A stretch of DNA of 64,000 nucleotides from a virus. The stretch is taken from IMG/VR virus record IMGVR_UViG_3300046820_004106, positions 58,088-122,087 of that record, one strand, 5' to 3'. Under the pieces are notes generated by a model. The model was not told the DNA's origin, did no database searches, and worked only from the letters and a program-made list of their open reading frames with translations. Of the stretch, positions 23,464 to 58,907 are shown in pieces (positions within the stretch are counted from its first letter, which is position 1; each line of letters starts with the position of its first letter). A program made the position numbers and the translations under genes.

Positions 23464-23469
23464 ATTATA
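23464..23469 (-). promoter_or_regulatory. -10 box TATAAT before the methyltransferase gene
   Basis: GGTATAAT on the minus strand ends 6 bases before the ATG at 23457. The TAA stop of the homing endonuclease gene is embedded in the box (GTA TAA T). A leaderless mRNA is predicted. Confidence 0.62.
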
Positions 23470-24610
23470 CCTTCAACGCTTCTTCAATACACATACCCAA
23501 CTTTAATAACCTAAAACGCAACTTCTGATAATTTATCTCACAACGGATATCCTGAGACCAAGCTAATATACTTTTTTCCTCACCCTGATAAGTAAATAAA
23601 TGAGTCTTTTTCTTTGCATCAGGATTTGCCCATAAAGTTTTACCTTTGTCAGGAATAACAGTCATAGCAATCTCAGGTGGAACATTTCTTTTAAATAATC
23701 TGTCATAAAGAGTGTTTTTATCTACAATACATCTTTCATCTTTTAACCAATCAAGATAGTGCTTGTTTTCTCCCCAAGCTTCAACATATAATTGAGAACG
23801 AACATCTCTATTGTCTTTTTGAGTATGAGTTAAGTTATCTAAAATTGGTTTTATGCTACATCTGTTTACATTGTATTTCAAAGATAATTCATTTGAGTTT
23901 AAACCGTTTTTATAGTCATTTCTAATCTTTTCTGCTAAAACAAAATCAACTTTGACAGTTTGTTCCAAGTAATCTTCTTTGTTGATAAATTCATTGTATA
24001 TATCAAATTTTCTCTTAAGTCTAGTTTCTTCAGTGCTGTCCTTATAGATCCAATCTAAAAATGATTTAGTGTGATTTGAGCCAGTGTATATCAATTCATA
24101 ATATGTGTCATTGTTTTTGATTGAGCCACATTCAGAGCCATAATGTTTTTCAAATTCTGATTTCAATCTTTCAATGAATGGCAACGTACTGACAAGCTTT
24201 ACTACTAAATTTTTATTATTGGGATTATGCGCTTGAGCTAATCCAATATGACCATCACCATCAAAATAACCTCTTACAAAATGAGTTACAAATTCTTCTG
24301 GTATTTGTTCAATCCATTTAAGTTCTTGAGATTTATGTCTTGTAAGCCCAAAATTCATTAAGTCTTGAGTAATCTCTTTGGAAACAACCCACAAGTTGGC
24401 GCTTGGCAAATTTTTTCTCAAATAAATATTTCCATCATAATTTAAAAAATTCTTAAAATTTTCTAAAATATATTTATCTTTAGTATGTAGTTGTATTGAT
24501 AGCATATTTCTATGAGTAGCTAAATGACCATCTGCACATATAAATCCCAAGAAATATGCCATTTCTATTGACCAAGTCTGAAAATACTTTTCGTTTTTAG
24601 TTCTTTTCAT
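23465..24610 (-). CDS. LAGLIDADG homing endonuclease, free-standing
   Basis: The 381-residue protein has two LAGLIDADG helices, AYFLGFICADG (residues 18-28) and FVRGYFDGDG (111-120), each with its catalytic acidic residue. A C-terminal DNA-recognition part follows: a helix-turn-helix-like segment NSNELSLKYNVNRCSIKPIL (about 226-245) and two copies of a short Trp-containing repeat (HYLDWLKDERCIVD ... and SILAWSQDIRCEIN ...) found in homing-endonuclease tails. It lies directly after the capsid gene's terminator. That capsid gene carries an ORF-less group I intron 140 bases upstream of this start, so it may be the mobility enzyme for that intron. Confidence 0.9.
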   Translation of the reverse strand: MKRTKNEKYFQTWSIEMAYFLGFICADGHLATHRNMLSIQLHTKDKYILENFKNFLNYDGNIYLRKNLPSANLWVVSKEITQDLMNFGLTRHKSQELKWIEQIPEEFVTHFVRGYFDGDGHIGLAQAHNPNNKNLVVKLVSTLPFIERLKSEFEKHYGSECGSIKNNDTYYELIYTGSNHTKSFLDWIYKDSTEETRLKRKFDIYNEFINKEDYLEQTVKVDFVLAEKIRNDYKNGLNSNELSLKYNVNRCSIKPILDNLTHTQKDNRDVRSQLYVEAWGENKHYLDWLKDERCIVDKNTLYDRLFKRNVPPEIAMTVIPDKGKTLWANPDAKKKTHLFTYQGEEKSILAWSQDIRCEINYQKLRFRLLKLGMCIEEALKV

Positions 24611-24747: not shown

Positions 24748-25035
24748 CTCCTGTTCGGTTTAGGCTCTTTATCCTAAACTTACCTCCTCATTTCTAAGGA
24801 GTGTCGGACTATATCTTCATCTACTAGAGATGCTTCGCACTCTTGGAAATTTCATCCGTTCTGGATTACTTTTTCTAGTCTCTGAACCTTCTAAATATTC
24901 CTATTTAGCTTGGTTGCTGATTGCCATATCTTTCGACTTAGGTTTCCAGCAATTCACGAAGTTTGTTCTATAATGTCGCCATTATAGAGCCCCCATTAAT
25001 TAATACTGATTCTACTTACAGCGTAATCTTGGATA
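24748..25035 (-). ncRNA. Self-splicing group I intron in the major capsid gene
   Basis: This 288-nt element shows the conserved group I core in order on the minus strand: P at 24940-24954 (AATTGCTGGAAACCT), Q at 24907-24922 (AATCAGCAACCAAGCT), R at 24875-24886 (TTCAGAGACTAG) and S at 24806-24817 (AAGATATAGTCC). A P2 hairpin with a GCGA tetraloop lies at 24968-24987, and P9-type hairpins precede the 3' end. The guide ATGGGGGC (24989-24996) pairs with the ligated exons GCCCU|CAU over all 8 positions, with the required U-G wobble at the 5' splice site and G as the last intron base. It has no internal protein gene, but its first 40 nt encode a mimic of exon 2. Confidence 0.92.
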
Positions 25036-25850
25036 AGGGCGAATCCGAGCTCTTCATAAACAACCCAGCCTAATCTCAATCTCTTTGGATCGTCAGCTGG
25101 AAGAACTGTGATGTCTTGGCGAACTGGCATTGCACCAACAAATTGGGCAGGTGCGAGAACGTAAACACTGTTCTTAGGAACCATTGTGGAAACGTGGATG
25201 TCTGCGGAATAAATATGTCCGTAGAGACCAGTCATAAGAATATCTCTTTGAGTTGCCTCATCGAAGAATTCCTTACCCCAGTTTCTGATATCCTTGTAGC
25301 GTTGTGGGTGAAGAACAACCTTAGCACCGATCAACTCGTGCTCTTCAATGAGGGTCAACGCAAGGTTGACGTTCTCTGGTTGGAGAGTACCGGAAACGGA
25401 AATTGCTTGGTCAGTTGGAACGCCAGCGTTGATAACCTTGAAGACTTCGGTATCTTCTTGTCTTTGGAGGGAGTCCTTAGCACGAACTTGAGCTCTATCG
25501 ACAATGTAGAATCTTCTTTGGCGAATTTCGTTCAAGCGGATTTGTGGGTGTGCAGCTAATTCAACTGTAGGAACGAGAAGCTCTTCAGCCTCAACTTCTG
25601 CAGTAGGAACAGCACCACGCTTAGGAATGACGTATGACTTGACAGCAACGTCTCTCTCGTAGCGAGCAAGAGCGCCTTGTGGGAGCTCATCAACCATCAA
25701 AAGCTTTCGACCGATGGCTTGGTACATGAGGGAGGTCTTGATTGGCTCAACCATTGCTTGTGCAAGAGCTGTGCGTCCCTCTGGAGTCTCGAGAGCCATT
25801 GCAATAATGGATTCTCTTTGCTCATTTGTGTTTCTCTTAATCATTGACAT
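24996..25850 (-). CDS. Major capsid protein, HK97-fold type (exon 1 plus readthrough end)
   Basis: The 284-residue product looks like an HK97-fold major capsid protein: an N-arm helix, a long beta-hairpin region near YVIPKRGAVPTAEVEAEEL, then VYVLAPAQFVGAMPVRQDI and a P-domain end GWVVYEELGFAL. Its place after the portal, protease and core genes agrees. The true exon 1 is 25036-25850; the coordinates given follow the unspliced frame to its TAA. Splicing replaces the last 12 residues with a near-identical set. Start: AAGGAG lies 11 bases before the ATG. Codons use more C and G at third positions than neighbouring glycan genes, as expected for a highly expressed gene. Confidence 0.92.
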   Translation of the reverse strand: MSMIKRNTNEQRESIIAMALETPEGRTALAQAMVEPIKTSLMYQAIGRKLLMVDELPQGALARYERDVAVKSYVIPKRGAVPTAEVEAEELLVPTVELAAHPQIRLNEIRQRRFYIVDRAQVRAKDSLQRQEDTEVFKVINAGVPTDQAISVSGTLQPENVNLALTLIEEHELIGAKVVLHPQRYKDIRNWGKEFFDEATQRDILMTGLYGHIYSADIHVSTMVPKNSVYVLAPAQFVGAMPVRQDITVLPADDPKRLRLGWVVYEELGFALIQDYAVSRISIN

Positions 25851-28410: not shown

Positions 28411-31400
28411 CTAATCTATCCAAGTAATGGATACATCGAGCTTTGATGGATCTTTCTTTGAAGCTTGTACAGTTGTTCTTGAATAATTTCCACACTTGTA
28501 GCAGAAAGTATTATTCTTGACTTTATGTGCTTCTCTGTCACCACAAGATGGACAAATCATACCTACAGGAAGCATTGCTTCTGATGTTCTGTCAAATGAT
28601 GGTAATGCGGTCTTCAAATAAACATCAGAATCAACTGTTGCTGATAACCTAACCATAGTTTTAATTTCAGATGCTACTGGACCCATACCAGGAGCAGCAG
28701 GTGATTGAGCAGGAAGCTCTGCAGGTGCAGTAGCTGCGCCTAAACCAGTTTCAGGTCCAAGACCCATTGGCTCTTCTTCTGGTGAACTCTTGCCCTTATC
28801 TCCCATTGAAACTAATTCAATTTGTTGAAGAATCTTATAGGTTGTTCCACAGCTTTGACAATCAGCATTAGATTCTGAAATATTTACATCATCTGATCCA
28901 CATACAGGACATACTGAGCCCCAAGGCTTTTTCTCACCTGGTTCAGCAATAGCATCCATATCAGCTGATTCGTTCATATCAGCTCCACCAGTTAATGAAG
29001 AAATTCCTAAATCACCACCAGCAGGAGCGCCAGCGCCTAAACCTGGATCAACAGGACCCGCTGCTGGACCAGCAGGAGCAGGTGCACCTGCAGCAGGAGC
29101 ACCCATTCCTGGCATAGCTTGTGCGTATTTTGACAAAATATTGTCTCTTCTAGCCTTTCTAGCTAATCTTGCACCTTCGGTCATAATAACAGGCATTTCT
29201 GCACTTTCTTCAGAGTGCATTTCAGAAGATTCATCGTCAGTTCTGAATGTTTTTGAAGAGGCAGTTGAAACTGTGGCAGTTACATCACCATTTTCAGAAA
29301 CAATCAAGTCTGTGAATGAGAATGTATTTGGATCTACTTGGAATCCGTGACCTTGAAGAACTTCAATTGCTTTCTGCTTGAATGACTCATCAAAATTGCT
29401 ATCACTTGGTTTTACTCCGTCTAAGTCTTCAGCTCTACACATAAATCTAATACAATCAGACTTGCTTTGTGTAACGGTCATACCAGCTGTTCTTTCAGAA
29501 GCAACAACTGCTTTAGCAACTAATTTTTCAGCAACTTCAAATTCTTCACAAAGTCTCTTTGCTGCTTTAGCAATTCTTCTTGTGCTGATACCAAAGTTTG
29601 TTGAGTAGTCTGCAAACCAACCAATTACATTTTCAGAAATATTTTTAGTAGATGCAGTCTTTACACCATAGAATTCTCTTCTTGCTCTGGATCTCAATCT
29701 TCCATCAGTTGCTGTTGCTGTCTTAGCTCTATCAATTGCAGCCATCAATTGCTTTTCAGGCATTGCATCAACAGAATCTACAACTTCATCAGGAGTTGTG
29801 CCGGTTTCTTTAGCAGACATAGCCATAGCAGAAATAGCAGACTTAAGATCATCTTTAGAAATAAGATCAGCGTCAGCATCTACAGCAGACATAAGTGCAG
29901 ACTTAAGTTCTTCATTCTTTGAAGGTGCAGCGTCAACATCCAATCCCTCAACAGGAACATTTGCTTGACCCATAAGAAGTTCGGCAATTCTTGAAACGCC
30001 TTCCTTGGTCATTTCGCCTTCTTCAACTGCAACTGAAAGAGCGTCAGCAAGATCCTTTGCAGTGATTTCAGAATTTACAGCAGCTCCAAGCTCCTTAAGA
30101 ACAGCAGAGACTGAATTTTCTGGCTTAGCGTCTCCACCAAAGAAATCTGCCTTTTCTGCCTTATCAGCTTCCATACCAGCACCAGCAGCTGCAGTACCAA
30201 TCATTTCAGGAAGCATTGGTTCTGATGCTAATGTTTGAGCAACACGAACGATAGTTTTTGGTGTTTCAAGTGAAGAAATTACAGCCTTGCCTAATGCATT
30301 GATAGTAGCTGCCATAATTTCGTGTGCAGATGCAGAACCCTCTGCACGATGGTTAGATAATTGCATCTCTAAAACTTCAGTAGGAACACCGTGTGTGACT
30401 TCATCAACAAGTTCAGTTAAGGATTTACGAACTTCTACATCCTTGATTCTTCTGCCGTAAAGTCCAGCATCTCCAAGAAGAATTTCTCTTACCGCATCCT
30501 GGCTTTCACCTGTTTGCTTTGGTGCTAATTGCTTTTCACGAACTTCATTTACAACGCCAGTGTTTTTTGACTTGACACCTTCGTATAAATTATCATATGA
30601 TTCACCACTTCTGACTTCATCAAGTTGTCTCTCTCTGTCATCAAGTCTTTCTTTGACATCAAGTAAAGCAGTCTTGACAAATTGTGAATAATCCTTGAGC
30701 AATTCAGCAGCAACTCTTGTACCTTGTCCGTTTTCCATCAAGCCAAGTTGATTTTCATTAAGGATAGGTTCCCAAGCAGTTCTTTTTCCATTTGTGTAAC
30801 CTGTGATTGAACCATCAGTAGAAAGAACAACTCTATTACCTGCATTGTCCTCGACTTTAAAATCGATTGTAACTGCAGCAGCAAGTTTTTTTCTTTGCTC
30901 TGATGCAATCTTTGCAAAGTGATCCATTTGATTTCTGCTCCCCGCCACGAAAGGCGTATTTGTTTTTATATTTTTGCTTCTTTCATTAGCAATTCTAATG
31001 ACATTATCAATACTTTTTTGAATTTGAGCACTATTATTTAAATTTTCTTTTAAATTTAAGATACTTTGTGTTAAATTCAAAATTTTATTGGAAGATGAAC
31101 CGTTTTGAGTGCTAGCAAAAACTTCTCTTTTACCATCTCTTGAAGCCCATACCAAATTGTGATTGCTAGAGGCTAATGCAACACCGCCTCCAACTTGCGT
31201 ACCTTGATCTCCGGAATAAGTAAGATCCATAATTTTTCCGACAGATTCAGTTGGTGCGTAATTTGCCAGACCAATATTGGCGTTCATTGGAGAAGCTTGT
31301 GGTGCTTGTCCCTGTTGCATATTTTGTGGCTGATTAATTTGTTGTGGTCTTTGTCCTGACCCAACATCTATACCATCATCAATCATATCTTGCATTGTAG

Positions 31401-32562
31401 ATTGAAGTTCTGCCATTGATTTAGTAACTTTTCCTACGTGTCCCAAATCAACATTATCTTTTCTTGCAAACATATTCATCACTGCAACTTCTAAGAAATT
31501 CAATGATAAATTGATCAAGTCAAGAATATTAAGACCAGATCTAGGATCAATTCCTAATGCTGTTAATACTGCTTGAACTGTAGAATTTTGATTTGCTCCT
31601 GCTCCAGCCAATAAAGGACCACCAACAAGAGTACCTGCTTGTTGCGCCAATCTTACTGCAGTTTTTGCTGTGGAATTCGCTACTCTTAAGCAGTTTTCGT
31701 ATTCTGTTCTAGATGAAGATTCTTGTGGAGATCCTTGTAATGCTAAAACAATATTTGCAGAAATTTCATTAGCTTTTTTCTCTAAATTCATTGCAGCATC
31801 AAGAACATCATCTACATCATAAATTTCTTGAATTTCGCAAGATTCAAAAGCTCCATCACCTACACAGCTAAGTTCAATAAATTTGACACCATAGTTTTTT
31901 TCATAAGCTTTCTTGCCAGTTTCAGGATAAATTTTACCTTTATATCTCTTAAGGTGATCACAATAATCTCTTTCAGTATATGCTTTATTGCCACACACTG
32001 AACAAACACCCCATTCAACACTCGCACCCATCGAAACATCGTGAATTACGCCTGTTCGAATATTTCTTGCAATGTCTGGGTAAGCTTCTTCATCTACAAA
32101 GAAAGTACAATAAACACAATCTTCTTCTTCATCCCATTCAGCGTAAACAACCATTCCTTTGGCTTGTTCAATATCATCATTTTTGTGATTTGTATAAATT
32201 GGAACGCCTTCAAAGGTTTTATAAGATGGGATTTTTTTGCCTTTGATTTCAACTTCTTTAAGTAATTCTTCCTTAGAAAAAAGATCACCATTAGCGTTGA
32301 CGACATCTGCATCAATAGCTCTAGCTCTTACCCATAAAAGTTTTGCACCCTTACGAGCTTGCATTTCTTTCACGATGTCGAAATCTTTGTATTTTTCTAG
32401 GACTTCTTTCGGATCAGCATAGAGAGATTGAAGACCAATCTTAGCTGCTTCTCTCATATTTGATGAAGCGGTCTTAATAATATAATCTCTAGCTATATTT
32501 CGGTCATTTTCGTTGAGGAAACTATTAATTGTAATAGCACCTCCTTTTGCAACCTTGTACAT
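28411..32562 (-). CDS. Prohead maturation protease domain in a 1383-residue head protein
   Basis: Residues about 75-260 look like the caudoviral prohead protease family: LWVRARAIDADVVNANGD, then a strand-loop with PIYTNHKND (candidate catalytic His) and VIHDVSMGASVEW (candidate catalytic Ser), with an inserted CSVCGNKAYTERDYCDHL zinc-like motif common in large phages. The remaining 1100 residues are helical and Ala/Glu-rich, scaffold-like, with two C-terminal zinc ribbons (CPVCGSDD ... CQSCG and CPSCGDRE ... CYKCG). A protease fused to a core-like protein suggests self-processing during head maturation. AAGGAT precedes the ATG. The role of the long C-terminal part is inferred. Confidence 0.8.
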   Translation of the reverse strand: MYKVAKGGAITINSFLNENDRNIARDYIIKTASSNMREAAKIGLQSLYADPKEVLEKYKDFDIVKEMQARKGAKLLWVRARAIDADVVNANGDLFSKEELLKEVEIKGKKIPSYKTFEGVPIYTNHKNDDIEQAKGMVVYAEWDEEEDCVYCTFFVDEEAYPDIARNIRTGVIHDVSMGASVEWGVCSVCGNKAYTERDYCDHLKRYKGKIYPETGKKAYEKNYGVKFIELSCVGDGAFESCEIQEIYDVDDVLDAAMNLEKKANEISANIVLALQGSPQESSSRTEYENCLRVANSTAKTAVRLAQQAGTLVGGPLLAGAGANQNSTVQAVLTALGIDPRSGLNILDLINLSLNFLEVAVMNMFARKDNVDLGHVGKVTKSMAELQSTMQDMIDDGIDVGSGQRPQQINQPQNMQQGQAPQASPMNANIGLANYAPTESVGKIMDLTYSGDQGTQVGGGVALASSNHNLVWASRDGKREVFASTQNGSSSNKILNLTQSILNLKENLNNSAQIQKSIDNVIRIANERSKNIKTNTPFVAGSRNQMDHFAKIASEQRKKLAAAVTIDFKVEDNAGNRVVLSTDGSITGYTNGKRTAWEPILNENQLGLMENGQGTRVAAELLKDYSQFVKTALLDVKERLDDRERQLDEVRSGESYDNLYEGVKSKNTGVVNEVREKQLAPKQTGESQDAVREILLGDAGLYGRRIKDVEVRKSLTELVDEVTHGVPTEVLEMQLSNHRAEGSASAHEIMAATINALGKAVISSLETPKTIVRVAQTLASEPMLPEMIGTAAAGAGMEADKAEKADFFGGDAKPENSVSAVLKELGAAVNSEITAKDLADALSVAVEEGEMTKEGVSRIAELLMGQANVPVEGLDVDAAPSKNEELKSALMSAVDADADLISKDDLKSAISAMAMSAKETGTTPDEVVDSVDAMPEKQLMAAIDRAKTATATDGRLRSRARREFYGVKTASTKNISENVIGWFADYSTNFGISTRRIAKAAKRLCEEFEVAEKLVAKAVVASERTAGMTVTQSKSDCIRFMCRAEDLDGVKPSDSNFDESFKQKAIEVLQGHGFQVDPNTFSFTDLIVSENGDVTATVSTASSKTFRTDDESSEMHSEESAEMPVIMTEGARLARKARRDNILSKYAQAMPGMGAPAAGAPAPAGPAAGPVDPGLGAGAPAGGDLGISSLTGGADMNESADMDAIAEPGEKKPWGSVCPVCGSDDVNISESNADCQSCGTTYKILQQIELVSMGDKGKSSPEEEPMGLGPETGLGAATAPAELPAQSPAAPGMGPVASEIKTMVRLSATVDSDVYLKTALPSFDRTSEAMLPVGMICPSCGDREAHKVKNNTFCYKCGNYSRTTVQASKKDPSKLDVSITWID

Positions 32563-32687: not shown

Positions 32688-35048
32688 TTACAAATATTCT
32701 GAATTTCCCTCACCCATACCTGTTCGCTTCTTGATTGCTTTTATCAACACGTTTAAACAATCTTGAGGGTGATCATTAATTTCCTTATCAGTAAATCTAA
32801 CAATTATCCATCCATTTGCAGCTAATTCTGAATCTCTACGTTTGTCTTTTGCAATCTTATCTGGATTATTGTGCCAAATTTCTCCATCAGCTTCTATGCC
32901 TATTTTAAGATTTGGAATTGCAGCATCTAATTGATAATCCATAGTAGGTCCTGCAGAATATTGAGCATAAAGAGGGTATGGCATATTCAAGGACATAGTT
33001 AATCCATATAATTTCTTTTCAAGACTTGTAAACATCTTAGGTTGCTGAGTGATATCTATTTTCTTCTTTGCATATTTCTTGATAGATTCGTTTTCATTAT
33101 TTGCAACTTGATAAATTTCTTGCAAAGCATAATTATTTAGTGGATGAGAGTTGTCTCCTCCGCATATAGGCATTTGTAAAGAGCCAAATAAGCCATCATA
33201 TTCGCTTGGAAGAGGACCAAGAGAACCTCTGCCTGTTACTGGTGTTAAGGACATAAGGAAGCCTTCGTGAGCAGCAGATTTGATTCTTTTACTTGCAGTT
33301 CTTACACCAGAATTTTTTGCATTAATTCTTTCATCATAAATTTGATTAATTACTGAACTAGCAAATTTATAGTTTTTCGTCATTATTTCTGCAGTAGGAG
33401 TAGGGCCAGCATTTGGAACTGGAGGAGGAGCGCCTGCTAATCCTTGAGCACCACCTCCAACAGCTAAGTCAGCTGGTGGAGGAGCCATTCCTGCACCAGA
33501 CATATCAGGAGCACCAAAGCCTTGACCTGTAACTCCTCCACTTTGAAAACTTAGAGAAATATTAGGAGTTCCAAAAGATTGATCATTTACAAAGTTTGCA
33601 CCTTGTTCAAAACGTAATCTTTCAATTTCTTGATCTGAATCTAATCCAAAAGCTTCTATAAGTGAAACATTTGAAATTACGCCATTTTGATTAGCGGTGA
33701 CAAGCATCTGTAATTTTCCAGTATCATCACGCAATTGAAGATCATCGAATTTAATTTTTGGATAAACTAATTCGTCTTGCCCTCTCTCGCCTTCAATTAC
33801 AAAACCATTCCACTTTGCAACTGGCATAAAAACATTTTGTTCAATCCAATGGGCAACTTCTCTTCTAAATGTTTCTAATCTTTGAGCCATAGCAAGAAGA
33901 CCAACTTGAGCATTGCCATAAGTTGGGCCCTCACCATTTAACAGAGCTTTATTTAGCATTACGCCATCTAAAATCTCTTGTTCAATCAATTCAAATTCAC
34001 CAGTCAAAGGATGAATTTTTCCAGTTGCACCATACCATTCCAAATCAAAATTGTGGTGTGTTACAAGAGTTAAGTTTGGATCATTAGCAATAGATGCCAA
34101 TTCATCTTGAACATTGTCAATATCTTCTTGTGATGCTGGTCTTGTATCGCTACCAATTTTTACAACCTTGATTGGCAAGATAAGTCTTTCAGCTATCATA
34201 TATTGAGCTTGGCGAAGTTTATCTTTGTAAGTTAAAATTGGAAACAATGGTCTGATCATAGAAATTCCATAATCTTCCCAAGGGTTTGATCCATATTTGA
34301 AATGATGAATTGAAATTGGATTTAATTTGATTGGATTTCCCTGAATAATCATTTTTTTGATATCATCAGGAATTTTGTCATAAATCTCTTTAGGATGTCT
34401 TTCATTTACAATTCTAATTTCTTCAGCAGAAGGTCGGTAAGCATAGCTACCTGGTTGATCAATCATACCAGGGCTTTTAATTACAGAATCAGGATTTAGA
34501 ATTGAAATTGATTTCCAAGTGGCTCCATCGTGCTCACATTCTTTATTTTTGTCATTGTCCCAGTTTGAACCGTGACAATGTGGGCAGTCAAGCGAAAGAA
34601 GAACAAAAGAGTCGCCCAATAAGTGATATGTTTTAGAGATTTCAGGAAGCCATTTTTGAAAATTAAGTGATTCTACTAACTTTTCAAAATAATCCTTAAC
34701 ATAAGAAGAAGAACATTCTAACTTCCAACCAGAGAAAGGATAGTTGGTGTAAAAATTGACAGCTGCTGCAATTTTTGGCTCATTATTTCTCCACCAGTTT
34801 GCCCAAAGATAAACTTCACGACGAGCATTAGGTATTTGGAACGAAGATGGAGTTAAGAATGGCGAATAGAAATTAGGAGATGTTGTTACTGTATTTACAC
34901 TAGCAGTTCTTGTTACACTCGGACCTAAACCAAGACCAATTCTACTACTTGCATAATTTTTATCTACAGAAGCTGTTGAAGAGGTTGTTCCTGATACTTG
35001 TGTTGCTGCTGTTCTGATAGCAGAAGCCAATGATGTTCTATTTGCCAT
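32688..35048 (-). CDS. Portal protein with C-terminal PD-(D/E)XK nuclease-like domain
   Basis: The 786-residue protein has a portal layout: a clip/wing region with REVYLWANWWRNNEPKIAAA, KTYHLLGDSFVLL, an HxxG-type CPHCHG ... CEHDG zinc-like insert, a stem with NPWEDYGISMIRPLFPILTY and a long helix KALLNGEGPTYGNAQVGLLAMAQ. A low-complexity Gly/Pro/Ala linker (about 505-550) follows. The last 80 residues resemble DUF559/Vsr-type endonucleases: LDAAIPNLKIG, IEADGEIWHN (Glu719, Asp721) and RDSELAANGWIIVRFTDKEI, with Asp708 as the first acidic site. A TATAAT box lies 7 bases before the ATG. The portal call is firm from order and motifs; nuclease activity is inferred. Confidence 0.86.
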   Translation of the reverse strand: MANRTSLASAIRTAATQVSGTTSSTASVDKNYASSRIGLGLGPSVTRTASVNTVTTSPNFYSPFLTPSSFQIPNARREVYLWANWWRNNEPKIAAAVNFYTNYPFSGWKLECSSSYVKDYFEKLVESLNFQKWLPEISKTYHLLGDSFVLLSLDCPHCHGSNWDNDKNKECEHDGATWKSISILNPDSVIKSPGMIDQPGSYAYRPSAEEIRIVNERHPKEIYDKIPDDIKKMIIQGNPIKLNPISIHHFKYGSNPWEDYGISMIRPLFPILTYKDKLRQAQYMIAERLILPIKVVKIGSDTRPASQEDIDNVQDELASIANDPNLTLVTHHNFDLEWYGATGKIHPLTGEFELIEQEILDGVMLNKALLNGEGPTYGNAQVGLLAMAQRLETFRREVAHWIEQNVFMPVAKWNGFVIEGERGQDELVYPKIKFDDLQLRDDTGKLQMLVTANQNGVISNVSLIEAFGLDSDQEIERLRFEQGANFVNDQSFGTPNISLSFQSGGVTGQGFGAPDMSGAGMAPPPADLAVGGGAQGLAGAPPPVPNAGPTPTAEIMTKNYKFASSVINQIYDERINAKNSGVRTASKRIKSAAHEGFLMSLTPVTGRGSLGPLPSEYDGLFGSLQMPICGGDNSHPLNNYALQEIYQVANNENESIKKYAKKKIDITQQPKMFTSLEKKLYGLTMSLNMPYPLYAQYSAGPTMDYQLDAAIPNLKIGIEADGEIWHNNPDKIAKDKRRDSELAANGWIIVRFTDKEINDHPQDCLNVLIKAIKKRTGMGEGNSEYL

Positions 35049-35081: not shown

Positions 35082-35624
35082 TTAGTACCAAGTTTGATTA
35101 GAAGGTTTGTTGCCAAAAAGTATAGGATCTTGTTTACCTTTAAGCGCTTGATAATATCCTTCACCATTTTTAAAATGCTGAAAACTATTTCCCTTTTCAA
35201 TCGATGCCATACTTTGAGGGTCTCTATTGTTATTTTGTTGTCTAGAGCCTTCTAATTGTTCTTCAATAGATGTGTTTTCTGGAGCTTCGTGATAAGGTGA
35301 GTGTCTACGTGCTTCATTTGCTGCTGATTGAGGAGAAACTATATAATTACCATCATCGTCCATATTCATTCTGTGAGGACGATCAACTAATAAATTCCAA
35401 ATTTCTTTTTGCTGTTCTTGATTCATTTGGTAATAATCATCAAGATTTTTGCCCATTTTTTCAAGAATTCCAGCTAATTCGTCATACAATTCAGCAGGTT
35501 TGACATCTACAATTTCAGCCTTATCAATTTCAGATTGAGTAGTGCCAGAAGCCATAGTTGCGTCTTGCTCTTTTTGTTGTACTGCACCACCACCGAATTG
35601 AGCTAAAACTTGTTTATACCACAT
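35082..35624 (-). CDS. Head-region protein with MWY N-terminus, function unknown
   Basis: This 180-residue hydrophilic protein begins MWYKQVLAQFGGG. The opening MWY is shared with four + strand proteins at 51270, 60888, 62446 and 62918, although the rest of each differs. The remainder is Gln, Asn and Glu-rich with little predicted fold (ELYDELAGILEKMGKNLDDYY is the clearest helix). It overlaps the upstream gene by 11 bases and lies one gene before the portal. A virion-internal or assembly role is inferred from position. Confidence 0.7.
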   Translation of the reverse strand: MWYKQVLAQFGGGAVQQKEQDATMASGTTQSEIDKAEIVDVKPAELYDELAGILEKMGKNLDDYYQMNQEQQKEIWNLLVDRPHRMNMDDDGNYIVSPQSAANEARRHSPYHEAPENTSIEEQLEGSRQQNNNRDPQSMASIEKGNSFQHFKNGEGYYQALKGKQDPILFGNKPSNQTWY

Positions 35625-37275
35625 CGTCGTATTCTTCTCTTTTAGATTCCATTACATAATCTAAGCCAAGTTCATCAGCAAATTTTTTAAGATCTTCATC
35701 TGAAAATTGATGACCAAAACTATCTTCATCATCTTCACTCAAGAGAGCTTCAATATTTTTGGTGATTTTTGTGTTGTGTCTTGTATCTTCTAATTGTTCA
35801 TCTTTAGGCACATCAACAACATTTTTCTTTCTAGTTTCATTTAGAATCTGTTCTTGATTCATTTCTTTTTTTGATGCGGTAATATTTTTATCTAATTGAT
35901 GAATAATCGATTCTTTTGGTTCATCTTTATCCTTATTCAATTCATCTCTGTAATTAACAACATCTTTGTCATTTACATTTAGTTGATCAGCATAAGAGTT
36001 TTCCATTTCACCACGGCGAGAATAAAGATCATCAGAATCAAGTTGTTTTTCTCTTGTTTCATCTGTTTCAGAAACTTGTTGATTAAGTCTTCTCAACAAT
36101 ATTTCTAAATAATCTGTACCTTTTTGATCTTTTCTTGGCAATTGAGAATCTATAGTTTTATTAGCATCAGTTTGGGCTTGTTTTGGGCGCATAACTGGCT
36201 TATCACCTTGTTGATGCCCATAATTTGATTGCTTAATTTCAGACAATTGTTTTTCTCTAGAATCATCGACATTTTGTTTGCCTCTGATTTTGTTTGCACC
36301 TCTATCTGAATTATCAAATCTAGCTTCATATCCAATTTCACCTTCGGTCAATTTTTGGGATCTTTCGCCTTCTTTGAGTTCTAGAGCGTTTGCTTCATTA
36401 TCAGGGTGCTTATGAACATCCAATCTTGCCATCACTTCATCGTGGGACTGGAATGCAACCTTAAGCCAATCTTGATACGCACAAGATACGTGTCCATCTT
36501 TATCAACACGGGAATCGATGCAGTTTTCACGGCACTTAGAAATTTCCATAGGAATTGGAGCTTTGAATCCTTGAAATTTACCTTTAGGGCAAAGTAAGTA
36601 AGGTTCATTTGCTTGCGTTGATAATGATGTGTAAGCTACTCTTCTATTTTCTTTTGGTGTAATCTCTGAATACCAATTGTGTAAATAGTTTGAAACCTTG
36701 GTTGATTGAAGCTTATTGCCTGATAATACAATGTTTCTAGCACTTTGAAGTTTAGAAATTCTCAGTGATGTAGAAGCAAACTTCTGTAGTTTATCTAATG
36801 AATCTATAGCTTCTATTTGCCAATAACCGGCTGAATTATCTGATGTTTTATATGCAGTTCTTTCAAGTCTAGCAGCTTCATTATTTTTATTGATAAAGTT
36901 TTGTAAAGCCATATACGCATAGCGAAGAATATTTCTTTCTTCTGCTAACTTGACGTTATTTAATTTATTGTAAGCGTGATGTAAATGATGATGAGCATCT
37001 TTTCCAGGAAGAGCTACAATTTTAATAATGTGCTCAGGGCCACCCATATTTTTAAATGCTGAAATTACAGGATCATCACCAAAATCATTCATATCTAATA
37101 CGTGGAAAGGAGAAGACATCGGCATAGAATCACCATCTCCAAGTCCAGCAATTGTGTCTTGAAGCATACTGAGCAATCCAGTTCCGCCAATTAATGGTTT
37201 CTTTTCCATAATCTCGTGAATTTTTTTAGGATCGTGAGTTTCGTATGTTGCTTTGATCTTATAACCTTTATCCAT
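35614..37275 (-). CDS. Head-region protein with short REKQL repeats, function unknown
   Basis: This 553-residue protein is unrecognised. The N-terminal half is compact (an LCPKGKFQGFKAPIPME segment followed by CRENCID ... CAYQDW, a four-cysteine set likely to bind metal, near residues 230-270). The C-terminal half is charged and disordered-looking, and contains spaced copies of a short motif, SREKQLSEI and TREKQLDSDDLYSRR. A related VREKQLAPK ... LYGRR pair occurs in the 1383-residue protease/core protein. The start is preceded by the next gene's stop at 2 bases. A head-assembly or packaged-protein role is inferred. Confidence 0.72.
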   Translation of the reverse strand: MDKGYKIKATYETHDPKKIHEIMEKKPLIGGTGLLSMLQDTIAGLGDGDSMPMSSPFHVLDMNDFGDDPVISAFKNMGGPEHIIKIVALPGKDAHHHLHHAYNKLNNVKLAEERNILRYAYMALQNFINKNNEAARLERTAYKTSDNSAGYWQIEAIDSLDKLQKFASTSLRISKLQSARNIVLSGNKLQSTKVSNYLHNWYSEITPKENRRVAYTSLSTQANEPYLLCPKGKFQGFKAPIPMEISKCRENCIDSRVDKDGHVSCAYQDWLKVAFQSHDEVMARLDVHKHPDNEANALELKEGERSQKLTEGEIGYEARFDNSDRGANKIRGKQNVDDSREKQLSEIKQSNYGHQQGDKPVMRPKQAQTDANKTIDSQLPRKDQKGTDYLEILLRRLNQQVSETDETREKQLDSDDLYSRRGEMENSYADQLNVNDKDVVNYRDELNKDKDEPKESIIHQLDKNITASKKEMNQEQILNETRKKNVVDVPKDEQLEDTRHNTKITKNIEALLSEDDEDSFGHQFSDEDLKKFADELGLDYVMESKREEYDDVV

Positions 37276-42717: not shown

Positions 42718-45700
42718 TTATCGTCTATTTAAATTGACCATTTTTGATCTAGGCAATCTAACCATAATTTTTGATGTCAGACATTCGTAAGCTACAGCAG
42801 CAACAGCATCACATATGTCATCTTTATATCCAGAAAGTGCTTCTATGTAATATCTTTTACCCTTCCATTTTTTTTGCAAGAATAAAAATTGAATTTTAGC
42901 TTCTTGTATTTCATTTAGTGAAATTAATTTTTTATCTTGGTCATAATATTCACCGCCTGATAAATCATAAATGTCAATTCGATCATCACGTATCAATTGC
43001 GATAATTCTGTGTAAATATTTTCTTTATATTCTTTGTTGAATTGACGCTCTACAATTGGAATTCTCATAGATTGTAATTTGATTATGGAAGATTGCGAAT
43101 TCCATTGATCAATACTGACTTGCTTAAACTTAAACCTATTATGCAAATCAATTACGTAATCTTCAACTTCACTTTCTTTAACAGGTTGATTTTTAGATTT
43201 TGGATTCCAAAAATGAATATGATCTATGACTACTCTTTTTAATGGCTTGAAGTCAGGTCCAATTTCTCCATACATATTTTCAGTGTGAGCTATCACAAGA
43301 GCATAATAGTCAGAAGTACGAGCTGGATCAAGGTGACAAAAATACTCAAAATTACCTTCAGCTCTTTCTTTTCTTTTAACCATTGTCATTGATGAAAACA
43401 TTCTATCTATATCATCGGAAACAAACATAGGGTCAGATGAAGAGGCTCCAAATTCAGCACCATATTGCATCTGAAATTCTTGAGGATCCTTCTTTTTTTG
43501 ACCATCTAACCATTCTTTATCGATATTTGGATTGGTAAGCCAAGTTGGAAGTCTCATAACAAGAGTGGTAGGATCTTCTTGTCTGTTTTCATGTAAATCA
43601 TAAAGCAGACCTAATGGACCTTTTGGGTTAGAAAGTAACATCATTTTCCCATCTTTGCCAAACGTAGCAAGAGATGGTTTTAGATCATCATAAAGGGCAT
43701 AGTCAACACCAGAATCAGGATTATCTCCAGCCATAGCAGCAACTTCGTCCATAATAATTGTCCAACAAGTTAAACCAACAAGTCCAGAAGCGTTACTAGA
43801 ACCACAACGTAATACTAAAGAGCCAGCAAAAGGATTGATATTTTGCTCTTTTCTTCTAACATTCTCTTCTCGGTCGTGCTCAGTATAAAACCGCATTTCA
43901 AGCTCAGTATCTTTGCCAATATAAGGCGCAAAAAATGGAGAACCTAAAACTGTTTGCTTAATTTTAGAGAAGATTGCCTTTTTAGCCTGTTCTTCATTTC
44001 GAGCAACATTAAGAATAACAACTTCATCAAATTCCATCAAACCATATCTTGCTTGAGGATGACCCATAGAAATCAATCTATATAATTCATAAAGAGCCAT
44101 AGCAGACACTAGGAATGAATTGTGTGTAGGGATCATACTTCTACCACACAAATACATATGTGATGGGTGTTCTACTTGTATACATTGCATCCCAGGATTA
44201 GGCACAGGATTGCATTCTTTTATAAAAATCCTATATTTGTCAGATTTATCAATTGAAGTTTTATTATCAAGTACTGATTGTTTTCTAGATAAATTGAAAA
44301 CTTTGTCACCAGGGCGAACAGAATAAGTGATACGCCAACGATCAGATGTTTTTCTTCCATACAATTTAGCATCTGATTTTTTTATTGAAGCTTTATATCC
44401 CAATCCACAAACAAGTTCATAATAATCATATGCAAGAGTTTCATTGGTATTACAAAACTCCACTGTAAATTTCTTGGGATCTACATAACCATCTGTATCA
44501 TTTAAACCTCGGACTAATTCTAATCTTTGCTCAATAGAAGCTTGTTTATAAATTGATGGAATATGCTTGTTTTTAAATACACCTATCTCTTTAATTAAAT
44601 GTAAGAATATTTTATCTGATTCATTGTTTGGTTTTATATAATGACAAACTTGATTATATTCAGAATGTTTAATTGCATGATTACAAGTTGATTCAATGTA
44701 ATCAAAAATTTCCATATCAATTCCAGCAATTTGTCCATTATTATGTGATCCATCTCCTAACCATGCTCCAAGAAGATAAGGATGAATTAAAAGATCTTGT
44801 TCTGGAAATTGAAGAGGTTTTGTAATATCTATGGCATGATTATATTCAACAGTAAATTTCTCATTTCTTTCAGTTTGCGAGCCTTTTTTAAGCATCTGTC
44901 TAGGCTTACCATATGTTAATGATTCATAGATTTGCTTTGTGGTAAATACCTGAGGCACAGGATCTTTCGAGTATTTGCCTCTGGATGCATTTTTTCTCTG
45001 AGCTTTTGTAAGAGTTACCCATTCATGATCTTCACAGGCAACAATCTTATCTCCATTACTAAATACTAATTCATAAGCTTGTTTTTCATAATCTACATCT
45101 GATTTAGCAATAATCTTAGTAGGAGTTCCATCAGGTGCAAATACATATTCTCCCACTTTTAATTCACCCATTGTAGACCATCCTCCCATAGTATATACTG
45201 GTGTAGATAACCGGGTCGCTTTACCGCTCCTTCTCCCAAGTACTAAAACAAGCTCTTCAAATTTAAATCTTTTTGAACATTTTTCCTTTACTTGCATTCT
45301 TAATTTTGGATCAAATTCTTCAGAATAAAGTAAATCAAATTCACTTTGAAAACCATCAATAATTGGTCTTGCTTCTAGTAATTCTACTTGTCTTTCAGCA
45401 TCAGGATTAGTGGCTTCTTCTTTAGCAAACTTATATCTACTCTCTCTAACATTATTGTCCAATCTTTTACATTGCAAACAAGGAGAATTAACTACATTGA
45501 AAAAAGTTTTAAATTGCTTACCTTCTGAACGGGCTTTTAAGAAATCATTTTCATTTTTTTGGATATAATGCCAGACACATCCTTTACAATCATCTTGATT
45601 ATTAGATTCATCAATGACAAGGTTAGTGTTGCCTTCTTGTCCCATATAAAAACATTTTAATATCAATCTTTGCCAAGGATAAGGTCTTAGATTGCAAAAA

Positions 45701-45930
45701 TATGGATGCTCAATAAATGTGATGATATCTACAATTTGATCAGGATTAAATCTATCTTTCGAAGGTTTGGATGGAGGAGCAACTTCTGATCTTGTGGCAG
45801 GAACAATTTCATCAACAAAGTCATTAGCATATTCAGTGTCTTTGAATAATTCTGTTACAGAGTTCGCTTGTTGTAGTAATTGTGTTCGTAATTCTGCAGG
45901 GGATTTAGGAACTTGTGTTTGTTTTCTCAT
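42718..45930 (-). CDS. Terminase large subunit, interrupted by an intein
   Basis: The mature protein (703 residues after removal of a 367-residue intein) is the DNA-packaging ATPase and nuclease. The Walker A motif GRRSGK/S is split by the intein (residues 238-604). Downstream are IIMDEVAAMAG (Walker B and catalytic Glu), LLSNPKG (coupling motif), and an RNase H-like nuclease with HLDPARTSDYYALVIAH, SIDQWNS and KDDICDAVAAVAYE acidic sites. The N-terminal 160 residues contain a CKGC ... CLQC set, probably a zinc site. The upstream gene overlaps by one base (ATGA-type), as usual for small/large terminase pairs. Confidence 0.93.
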   Translation of the reverse strand: MRKQTQVPKSPAELRTQLLQQANSVTELFKDTEYANDFVDEIVPATRSEVAPPSKPSKDRFNPDQIVDIITFIEHPYFCNLRPYPWQRLILKCFYMGQEGNTNLVIDESNNQDDCKGCVWHYIQKNENDFLKARSEGKQFKTFFNVVNSPCLQCKRLDNNVRESRYKFAKEEATNPDAERQVELLEARPIIDGFQSEFDLLYSEEFDPKLRMQVKEKCSKRFKFEELVLVLGRRSGKATRLSTPVYTMGGWSTMGELKVGEYVFAPDGTPTKIIAKSDVDYEKQAYELVFSNGDKIVACEDHEWVTLTKAQRKNASRGKYSKDPVPQVFTTKQIYESLTYGKPRQMLKKGSQTERNEKFTVEYNHAIDITKPLQFPEQDLLIHPYLLGAWLGDGSHNNGQIAGIDMEIFDYIESTCNHAIKHSEYNQVCHYIKPNNESDKIFLHLIKEIGVFKNKHIPSIYKQASIEQRLELVRGLNDTDGYVDPKKFTVEFCNTNETLAYDYYELVCGLGYKASIKKSDAKLYGRKTSDRWRITYSVRPGDKVFNLSRKQSVLDNKTSIDKSDKYRIFIKECNPVPNPGMQCIQVEHPSHMYLCGRSMIPTHNSFLVSAMALYELYRLISMGHPQARYGLMEFDEVVILNVARNEEQAKKAIFSKIKQTVLGSPFFAPYIGKDTELEMRFYTEHDREENVRRKEQNINPFAGSLVLRCGSSNASGLVGLTCWTIIMDEVAAMAGDNPDSGVDYALYDDLKPSLATFGKDGKMMLLSNPKGPLGLLYDLHENRQEDPTTLVMRLPTWLTNPNIDKEWLDGQKKKDPQEFQMQYGAEFGASSSDPMFVSDDIDRMFSSMTMVKRKERAEGNFEYFCHLDPARTSDYYALVIAHTENMYGEIGPDFKPLKRVVIDHIHFWNPKSKNQPVKESEVEDYVIDLHNRFKFKQVSIDQWNSQSSIIKLQSMRIPIVERQFNKEYKENIYTELSQLIRDDRIDIYDLSGGEYYDQDKKLISLNEIQEAKIQFLFLQKKWKGKRYYIEALSGYKDDICDAVAAVAYECLTSKIMVRLPRSKMVNLNRR
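44119..45219 (-). other. Class 3-type intein with LAGLIDADG endonuclease in the terminase
   Basis: The 367-residue intein lies between GRRSGK and SFLVS. It begins with Ala instead of Cys or Ser and ends IPTHN with Ser at +1. The block B Trp (EDHEW, position 67), block F Cys (GMQCIQVEHP, position 346) and block G Thr (PTHN, position 365) form the WCT set that marks class 3 inteins, which start splicing at the block F Cys rather than residue 1. The middle holds two LAGLIDADG helices (PYLLGAWLGDGSHN and LVRGLNDTDGYV), so the homing endonuclease is likely intact. The insertion point in the ATP-binding loop is a very conserved target. Confidence 0.9.
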
Positions 45931-57193: not shown

Positions 57194-57567
57194 AATTCAA
57201 TACCTGAAATTCCCTCATTACGGGCTGGCTGGTAAACAAAAGCTGATTGATCACCATTGTCTCTTAAATCATTAATAAGAACTCTTGATCCACCACCAAT
57301 GCCCATAACCAATTGATCATAAACAATTCCAGCATAAGAAAGTTGTTTAACTGTTACATCACGCAAGCTTTCTTTTCGCCCAGTAGTGAGAATGATCTTA
57401 AAGCCCTTGCTATCCCACTCACGAATCTTGTCTACAGTTCCGTGAATAATTTTAGGTTGATATCCAGGCTTAGCAATTTCAGTAGGATCACCTTGCTCCC
57501 AAAGTGTTCCATCTAAATCACAAAAAATAGTGTAATTTTTTGTGGCTTGATCAATATTATGTTCCAT
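57190..57567 (-). CDS. HAD-superfamily phosphatase-like protein
   Basis: The 125-residue protein has FCDLDGTLWEQG (motif I, nucleophile Asp and general acid Asp), IILTTGRKESLRD (motif II region), and LINDLRDNGDQSA (motif IV-like acidic residues). This is a compact HAD hydrolase without a large cap, similar to small phage polynucleotide 3'-phosphatases and sugar-phosphate phosphatases. It overlaps the next gene by one base. The substrate cannot be read; nucleic acid 3'-phosphate or a nucleotide is possible from the neighbouring dUTPase and replication genes. Confidence 0.83.
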   Translation of the reverse strand: MEHNIDQATKNYTIFCDLDGTLWEQGDPTEIAKPGYQPKIIHGTVDKIREWDSKGFKIILTTGRKESLRDVTVKQLSYAGIVYDQLVMGIGGGSRVLINDLRDNGDQSAFVYQPARNEGISGIEL

Positions 57568-58907
57568 TACTTATTACTGCTCCCAAATCCACCATCATTT
57601 CTAGATGTTTCTTCAAAACTATCTACTTCTACCAAATCTACATTAACAATTTGTCTAGGAATCATTTGAGCAATTCTACAAGGTAATTCTAAATCTTTAG
57701 CATCATCATCTACTTTTATTAAAGCTACAAGAATTTCTCCCGTGTATGTCCTATCGATAATACCAACATTATTTGCTAACATATAACCAGTTTTAGAAAT
57801 TGAACTTCTGGGCACTACATCTAAATACCAGCCAAACTCAGGTACTACTTTAATACCAGTAGAATACAAAGTCGTTTTTCCAAAAGATTTTACTGGCTCT
57901 AAAATTGTTAAATCGTATCCGCTGTCCGAAGCTCTTTCTTTTGAAGGCTTAATTGCATCTGGACGAGTCTTCATCCATCTGAATTCAATAGATTTACCAG
58001 ATCTTTCTCTATGTTTCAAAGAGATACAAGGCATCCAAGTAGACCAATCCACATAGTTATTTCTTTTTCTTGGAAGATAATAATTTGCATCTTCATAAAT
58101 CTTACCTAAAAAATCTAAAGCATTATTTCCTGTCCATTTCAAGCTTATGACAGAATTTGAGCAAGGAATCTTACAAAAATCTATTATACTTTGGCGAAAA
58201 GAATCAGAAGAACTAGAAACACCACAACTAGGAGAGTGTGAAGAATCAACATAAGACACGTATCCATCTCCGTCAAAATATCCTCGTAAAAATGCCCATT
58301 GTAATTTTTCATTTTCTAAAACAGGCCAAGATATTGTATGACTTTTCTTCCCTGGGTTTATTCCTAATAAATTACACAAATCATTGGTAATAGTTTTAGA
58401 ATTAATTGACAAACTTTTTAAGTTTTCATCTTTGTTGGTTATCTTCAAATCTTTATCTATAATATTTCTTAAAGATTCAAGTGTTGACAAATCTTTTTCG
58501 TGTATTGCAATCGTAAAGCCTGACTTGTTTATCGTTCCATCGCTTGCAATCCAGCCAAGTAAATACGCTTTTGCTTCAGAGTCAATATGTTTAAAAAAAT
58601 TATCGTCCAAGTTCATATACCTAGTATTTGGATTTGATCGACCTGTAAATTTGAGTTTTCTTGAGCAATAAAGACAAATTATCTTATTATTATTTCTTAA
58701 AAGTGTTCGTTCTAAAAATCTTCTTGATACAGTCCAATTTTTTTTACATTTCTCAGAAATTATAAAATCACAACTTACTTCAACTCTTTCTTCTCTGATA
58801 GATTTATGAGGTCTAATTGAAACAGAACAGTCTCTAGAGCAACAAATTTGAATTTTTGACTTTGGTGTAAAAAGAATTTTACAACCAGGGCACATTTTAT
58901 TTTCCAT
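57567..58907 (-). CDS. Homing endonuclease fused to a dUTPase
   Basis: Residues 1-300 form a LAGLIDADG homing endonuclease: zinc-type N-terminus (CPGC ... CCSRDC), AYLLGWIASDG (114-123) and WAFLRGYFDGDG (204-215). Residues 307-446 are a complete dUTPase with motif 1 ASDSGYDL, motif 2 PRSSISKTGY, motif 3 GIIDRTYTGE, motif 4 RIAQ and motif 5 RNDGGFGSS, which hydrolyses dUTP to dUMP. No intein splice blocks are present (no THN/HNC end, no nucleophile start) and no group I core was found here. The protein may be a true fusion, or the dUTPase may start internally at Met312. It overlaps the HAD gene by one base. Confidence 0.88.
   Translation of the reverse strand: MENKMCPGCKILFTPKSKIQICCSRDCSVSIRPHKSIREERVEVSCDFIISEKCKKNWTVSRRFLERTLLRNNNKIICLYCSRKLKFTGRSNPNTRYMNLDDNFFKHIDSEAKAYLLGWIASDGTINKSGFTIAIHEKDLSTLESLRNIIDKDLKITNKDENLKSLSINSKTITNDLCNLLGINPGKKSHTISWPVLENEKLQWAFLRGYFDGDGYVSYVDSSHSPSCGVSSSSDSFRQSIIDFCKIPCSNSVISLKWTGNNALDFLGKIYEDANYYLPRKRNNYVDWSTWMPCISLKHRERSGKSIEFRWMKTRPDAIKPSKERASDSGYDLTILEPVKSFGKTTLYSTGIKVVPEFGWYLDVVPRSSISKTGYMLANNVGIIDRTYTGEILVALIKVDDDAKDLELPCRIAQMIPRQIVNVDLVEVDSFEETSRNDGGFGSSNK

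Follow-up and report, generated by a model that had tools for sequence, protein, structure and literature searches.

A portal protein with a C-terminal Vsr/DUF559-type nuclease domain, inherited throughout a clade of huge phages and possibly serving genome processing during packaging

The window, i.e. the whole stretch of 64,000 nucleotides of viral DNA that was analysed, carries on its minus strand a head cassette in which the portal protein is extended by a nuclease domain. The relevant genes and protein segments are as follows:

32688..35048, minus strand: gene for the portal-nuclease fusion (786 aa, beginning with ATG; coordinates include the stop codon)
33591..35048, minus strand: portal part, residues 1-486
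33390..33551, minus strand: Gly/Pro/Ala-rich linker of variable length, residues ~500-553 (from sequence and alignment)
33054..33371, minus strand: lineage-specific segment, residues ~560-665, fast-evolving and unrecognisable in distant members
32721..33047, minus strand: DUF559/Vsr-like PD-(D/E)XK nuclease domain, residues 668-776 (from profiles and model)
28411..32562, minus strand: adjacent downstream gene, 1383 aa, with a prohead-protease-like N-terminus (residues 52-242; phrog_18299, 3.2e-20)
24996..25850, minus strand: major head protein (MCP), part of the conserved head cassette
42718..45930, minus strand: large terminase (TerL); an intein interrupts its Walker A region, and acidic motifs of its own C-terminal nuclease can be read by eye

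The synteny of the cassette (TerL..portal-protease..MCP) is conserved. The protease-like protein ends in two Cys4 zinc-ribbon-like motifs and also matches phrog_27806, which is labelled DNA methyltransferase; like a 553-aa protein of the head cassette (35614-37275, minus strand), it contains repeated (R)EKQL-like motifs within low-complexity stretches. The intein of TerL is of the LAGLIDADG type, and a LAGLIDADG endonuclease gene (23465-24610, minus strand) lies just downstream of the gene for the major head protein. Further away, a single ORF (57567-58907, minus strand) combines an endonuclease-like part (phrog_4645) with a dUTPase-like part, which may reflect a dUTPase invaded by an intein or a homing element.

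The portal part was recognised by the Pfam family Portal_Mu (residues 234-467, E 3.4e-8, above the cut-off) and by PHROG portal families, which match residues ~49-482 with a best E-value of 3.7e-33. This core is homologous to the portal annotated in Bacillus phage G (28.8% identity, E 4e-55), and a weak profile match (E 0.0019) links the portal part to the solved structure of the SPbeta portal YonE (9pha). A conserved Cys-x2-Cys...Cys-x-His cluster in the core (C155, C158, C171, H173; 34530-34586, minus strand) is likely to form a small metal site. The mean pLDDT of the full-length portal model was 53.8, which is too low for placing the nuclease domain.

For the C-terminal domain, three lines of evidence were compared. 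Residues 703-772 match the Pfam families REase_MTES_1575 (PF18741; E 1.6e-9, 38.2 bits at a cut-off of 38.2) and DUF559 (PF04480; E 1.5e-6, 28.5 bits at a cut-off of 20.6), and relatives score up to 43.7 bits. A profile of 45 members of the domain matches, far above chance, the solved structures 3hrl (DUF559 protein NGO0050; E 4e-9) and 3r3p (catalytic domain of I-Bth0305I, a homing endonuclease from a phage; E 2e-7); among the solved structures, PvuRts1I was matched by this profile at chance level only. In an AlphaFold2 model of residues 560-786, the pLDDT of the nuclease is mostly 70-90 (blocks mostly 77-90), and Foldseek returned 3r3p and 3hrl as the best specific PDB matches (target-normalised TM 0.83 each, probability 1.00); the accompanying E-values of 0.002-0.02 result from the additional non-nuclease segment that the query includes. 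Mitoribosomal proteins, which we take to be bearers of related RAP domains, are also among the PDB matches. The viral matches of the domain are DUF559 and Vsr-like endonucleases. Because family profiles, solved-structure profiles and predicted fold agree, we regard it as confirmed, at the level of sequence and model, that the gene product is a portal protein with a C-terminal Vsr/DUF559-type PD-(D/E)XK nuclease domain. The identity assigned in the sequence-only reading, which had suggested a structure prediction against DUF559 and Vsr as a check, is thus fully supported. Its interpretation as a whole is supported in part: among the functions it considered, namely trimming or nicking of DNA at packaging or ejection and an attack on host DNA, the evidence favours a function in packaging. 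The reading had further described an 80-residue domain following a Gly/Pro linker: The nuclease assignment stands, but the domain comprises ~109 residues, and it does not adjoin the linker, from which it is separated by the ~100-residue lineage-specific segment.

The putative active site is formed by the following residues, identified by means of an alignment:

33018..33020, minus strand: Glu677, the first acidic residue (helix 1), invariant
32925..32927, minus strand: Asp708, invariant
32886..32894, minus strand: Glu719-x-Asp721 motif; the glutamate is invariant, the second position is Asp in 70/72 and Glu in 2/72 domains
32871..32873, minus strand: His726, invariant
32832..32846, minus strand: Asp735, Arg738 and Asp739, invariant
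32796..32798, minus strand: Arg751, invariant

Among 72 distinct domains, whose pairwise identity is as low as 20%, residues E677, D708, E719, G722, H726, D735, R738, D739, G746, W747, and R751 do not vary at all, and the catalytic-type positions (E677, D708, E719, D/E721, H726, D735, R738, D739, R751) are essentially invariant. Asp708, Glu719, Asp721 and the stretch RDSELAANGWIIVRFTDKEI (738-757) were found exactly where they had been noticed earlier from the sequence; Glu677 and His726 are additional invariant residues. For the closest pairs, the dN/dS ratios, which are approximate as dS is close to saturation in many pairs, were 0.006-0.022 for the nuclease, 0.012-0.025 for the portal core, and 0.05-0.14 for the joining segment, which evolves 4-10x faster than both the core and the nuclease domain. 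Inteins characteristically sit in the active sites of essential proteins; in three relatives (L319, L333, L354) an intein is inserted exactly between the equivalent of E719 and the next residue (719/720), splitting the E-x-D motif. Taken together, the conserved active site, the low dN/dS values and these inteins fit an enzyme of the essential type that works and is passed on together with the portal, as judged from sequence. In distant relatives (L133, L135-L137, L139, L303-L362), the number of inteins in the portal gene is one to three, and several insertion sites are used.

The clade is a large, uncultured group of huge phages to which nothing in 50,697 phage records is closely related; a scan with the portal profile likewise found no relative among 84,980 species genomes. 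An initial scan of viral contigs yielded 68 loci; every one codes for the portal of the fusion, and wherever the C-terminus is reached, the nuclease is present. With profiles made from the domain and from the portal core, the set grew to portals only ~45% identical in the core, all of them with the nuclease. Altogether, 123 of 123 distinct intact portals recovered from the clade bear the domain, with core identities down to 37%; this number counts distinct fused ORFs, and nine further portals are cut by contig ends. The check suggested earlier, a look for the fusion in related phages, has thereby come out overwhelmingly in its favour. Only two clade members lack a fused domain, L060 with an in-frame TGA and L361 with a frameshifted portal, and in both the nuclease lies directly downstream. 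The TGA of L060 (9681-9683; the same contig as L131/L343/L435) falls within the Gly/Pro linker and parts portal from nuclease; a natural split, readthrough or a sequencing error are candidate causes. In the tested clade members, with contigs of up to 379 kb, exactly one DUF559 domain was found each, namely the one in the portal.

Outside the clade, the portals of Bacillus phage G and of LR745208-like phages have a homologous core (22-31% identity) but no nuclease domain (0/5 phage G-like and 0/63 LR745208-like portals), and a search for DUF559 anywhere in the genomes of phage G, Tunturi_5, and Rctr197k gave no match. Phage G has the downstream protease-like gene in common with the clade. In a portal-core tree of 45 representatives, which was computed with a quick method and contains two long outgroup branches, a single change explains the fused state (SH-aLRT 99). 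Pairwise identities of core and nuclease are correlated in 108 portals (r 0.88; reached in 0/2000 permutations), and more weakly (0.37) among distant pairs with core identities below 60%. These sequence comparisons show that the nuclease was gained once and has been inherited as part of the portal. As it is intact in essentially every member, a basic role in assembly or infection is suggested rather than a stray insertion.

For such a role, phage T4 provides close functional precedents. When branched DNA stalls during packaging there, the portal-bound resolvase gp49 releases it (PMC9958956), and the head nuclease gp4, which has an REase fold, is required for packaging (PMC7824862). Given these precedents and a pattern typical of a core virion function, we favour a packaging role: The domain would be a portal-tethered, metal-dependent nuclease, gained once and functional, and most likely an assembly enzyme that processes the genome during packaging, a reading based on sequence analysis to which we assign slightly less than an even chance. 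A flexible Gly/Pro-rich tether would hold the predicted endonuclease on the portal, and up to twelve tethered copies would surround the DNA channel. Their work would consist in nicking, trimming or debranching the replicating genome during its passage through the portal, or in dressing the ends, and would spare packaging from stalling. That the domain cuts DNA and acts during packaging is what we infer from the observations above, as is the side of the portal on which it would sit; portal C-termini normally point into the capsid, as in phage P22 (PMC4992974). Such an inward orientation, opposite the terminase, would be awkward for resolving branches that stall outside.

Debranching is, moreover, not left to the portal alone, as a RusA resolvase is clearly encoded in at least two huge relatives (with sub-threshold matches in two more) and endonuclease VII in one. 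RuvC is absent from nine clade contigs and present in phage G. The idea that the portal domain stands in for a missing Holliday resolvase is not supported: RusA and endonuclease VII occur in relatives, and there is no consistent gap. Searches for TnsA-like and Pox_A22 domains gave no match anywhere, controls included, and are hence uninformative.

A less probable but serious alternative is that the nuclease is a weapon or entry factor carried by the virion, which would reside inside the head, enter with the genome and destroy unprotected DNA of the host or of competing phages, perhaps once the adjacent prohead protease has released it from the portal. The capsid-facing C-termini of the P22 portal (PMC4992974) would suit a head-packed nuclease equally well, and DUF559/PvuRts1I-like folds are of the restriction type. 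Predicted effectors (PBECR RNase, 2H, InPase) are on record as fusions to portal/MuF proteins (PMC5512222), another case of an enzyme joined to a portal-terminase head protein. The effectors described there have other folds and are not DNA endonucleases; here, a single domain is universal in the clade. Conflict effectors are usually swapped and turned over, whereas this domain has one origin and is constrained like the portal core. The protease-like gene adjoining the portal gene recalls the processing of giant-phage portals by such proteases, as in SPN3US gp81, but there the N-terminus is removed and not the C-terminus (PMC5694885). An AHE-G-like motif, a candidate cleavage site of the prohead protease, occurs in near relatives only; no cleavage-like site between portal and nuclease is conserved clade-wide, the segment being unalignable in distant members.

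Alternatively, the fold may have been retained without cutting, the domain serving as a DNA-binding grip, a sensor or a structural module of the portal. Inactive Vsr-like domains do exist, and the mitoribosomal proteins matched by Foldseek presumably belong to this wider inactive kind; in FASTKD4, mutation of a putative active-site Asp is without effect (PMC11879112). We nevertheless regard a non-cutting domain as unlikely, as all catalytic-type residues are invariant in the 72 distinct domains despite their divergence. Even more improbable is that the portal nuclease makes the headful or end-generating cut instead of the terminase nuclease. The head-full signal is sensed at the portal (P22/SPP1), to which the nuclease is joined. 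Still, the TerL of the window retains acidic terminase-nuclease motifs, which were read by eye as DPARTSDYY, SIDQW, and GYKDDICDA, so that there is no missing terminase nuclease for which the portal domain would stand in, and a portal C-terminus normally points inward, away from the motor.

The sequence-only reading had considered a domain captured from a mobile endonuclease. That a selfish homing nuclease became joined to the portal gene or trapped in it is largely refuted and very hard to believe: I-Bth0305I is among the closest solved relatives and the lineage is rich in inteins, but no intron or intein surrounds the domain, the patchy occupied and empty sites of EDxHD homing endonucleases are not seen in the clade, every intact member has the domain, and single gain, vertical inheritance and intense purifying selection rule out a recent capture. 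An ancient capture from a mobile endonuclease may have taken place.

The domain can thus be compared with several known systems. With DUF559/REase_MTES_1575 proteins such as NGO0050 it shares the fold and the pattern E...D...E-x-D...D/R...R-F, with significant profile and structure matches; the DUF559 proteins named in our searches either stand alone or are linked to helicases and other enzymes, whereas the domain described here forms the C-terminus of a portal and has His726 as an extra invariant residue. The Vsr-like catalytic fold is common to it and to Vsr and the EDxHD homing endonucleases, including I-Bth0305I; unlike these, the portal domain is not mobile, lacks DNA-binding modules and is fixed in a virion protein. 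The nucleases gp49 and gp4 of T4 likewise act at the portal or head in packaging, the role proposed here, but both are separate proteins, gp49 being of unrelated fold and gp4 a TnsA-like REase (PMC9958956, PMC7824862).

We found no description of a portal-nuclease fusion in the open-access papers searched, and no isolate with the fusion among the 50,697 phage records, where distant matches to the portal core only were examined in part. The domain matches in annotated phages, for which one query was a home-made consensus, are helicases and free-standing endonucleases, including proteins of Lak phages outside the portal. In Prevotella phage Lak-B2 (L364), 8 kb hold three ORFs of the EDxHD/DUF559-like endonuclease type, the best of which is open only with TAG readthrough. 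Portals with added enzyme domains have been described before, as have nucleases that act at portals; a DNA endonuclease built in universally is new within the literature and records searched.

Few machines of tailed phages and herpesviruses are as conserved as the portal. The packaging nucleases of T4 are separate and loosely bound; in the clade described here, each of the twelve portal subunits would have a predicted endonuclease built into it. This raises the question of what keeps a portal nuclease from destroying the phage's own genome, which is within its reach. The active site is constrained like the portal itself, and the clade makes the action of a nuclease at the portal directly testable. 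The chances are even, in our estimate, that a restriction-type DNA endonuclease has been made an obligatory, integral part of the portal in an entire lineage and that a previously undescribed step of genome processing takes place there.
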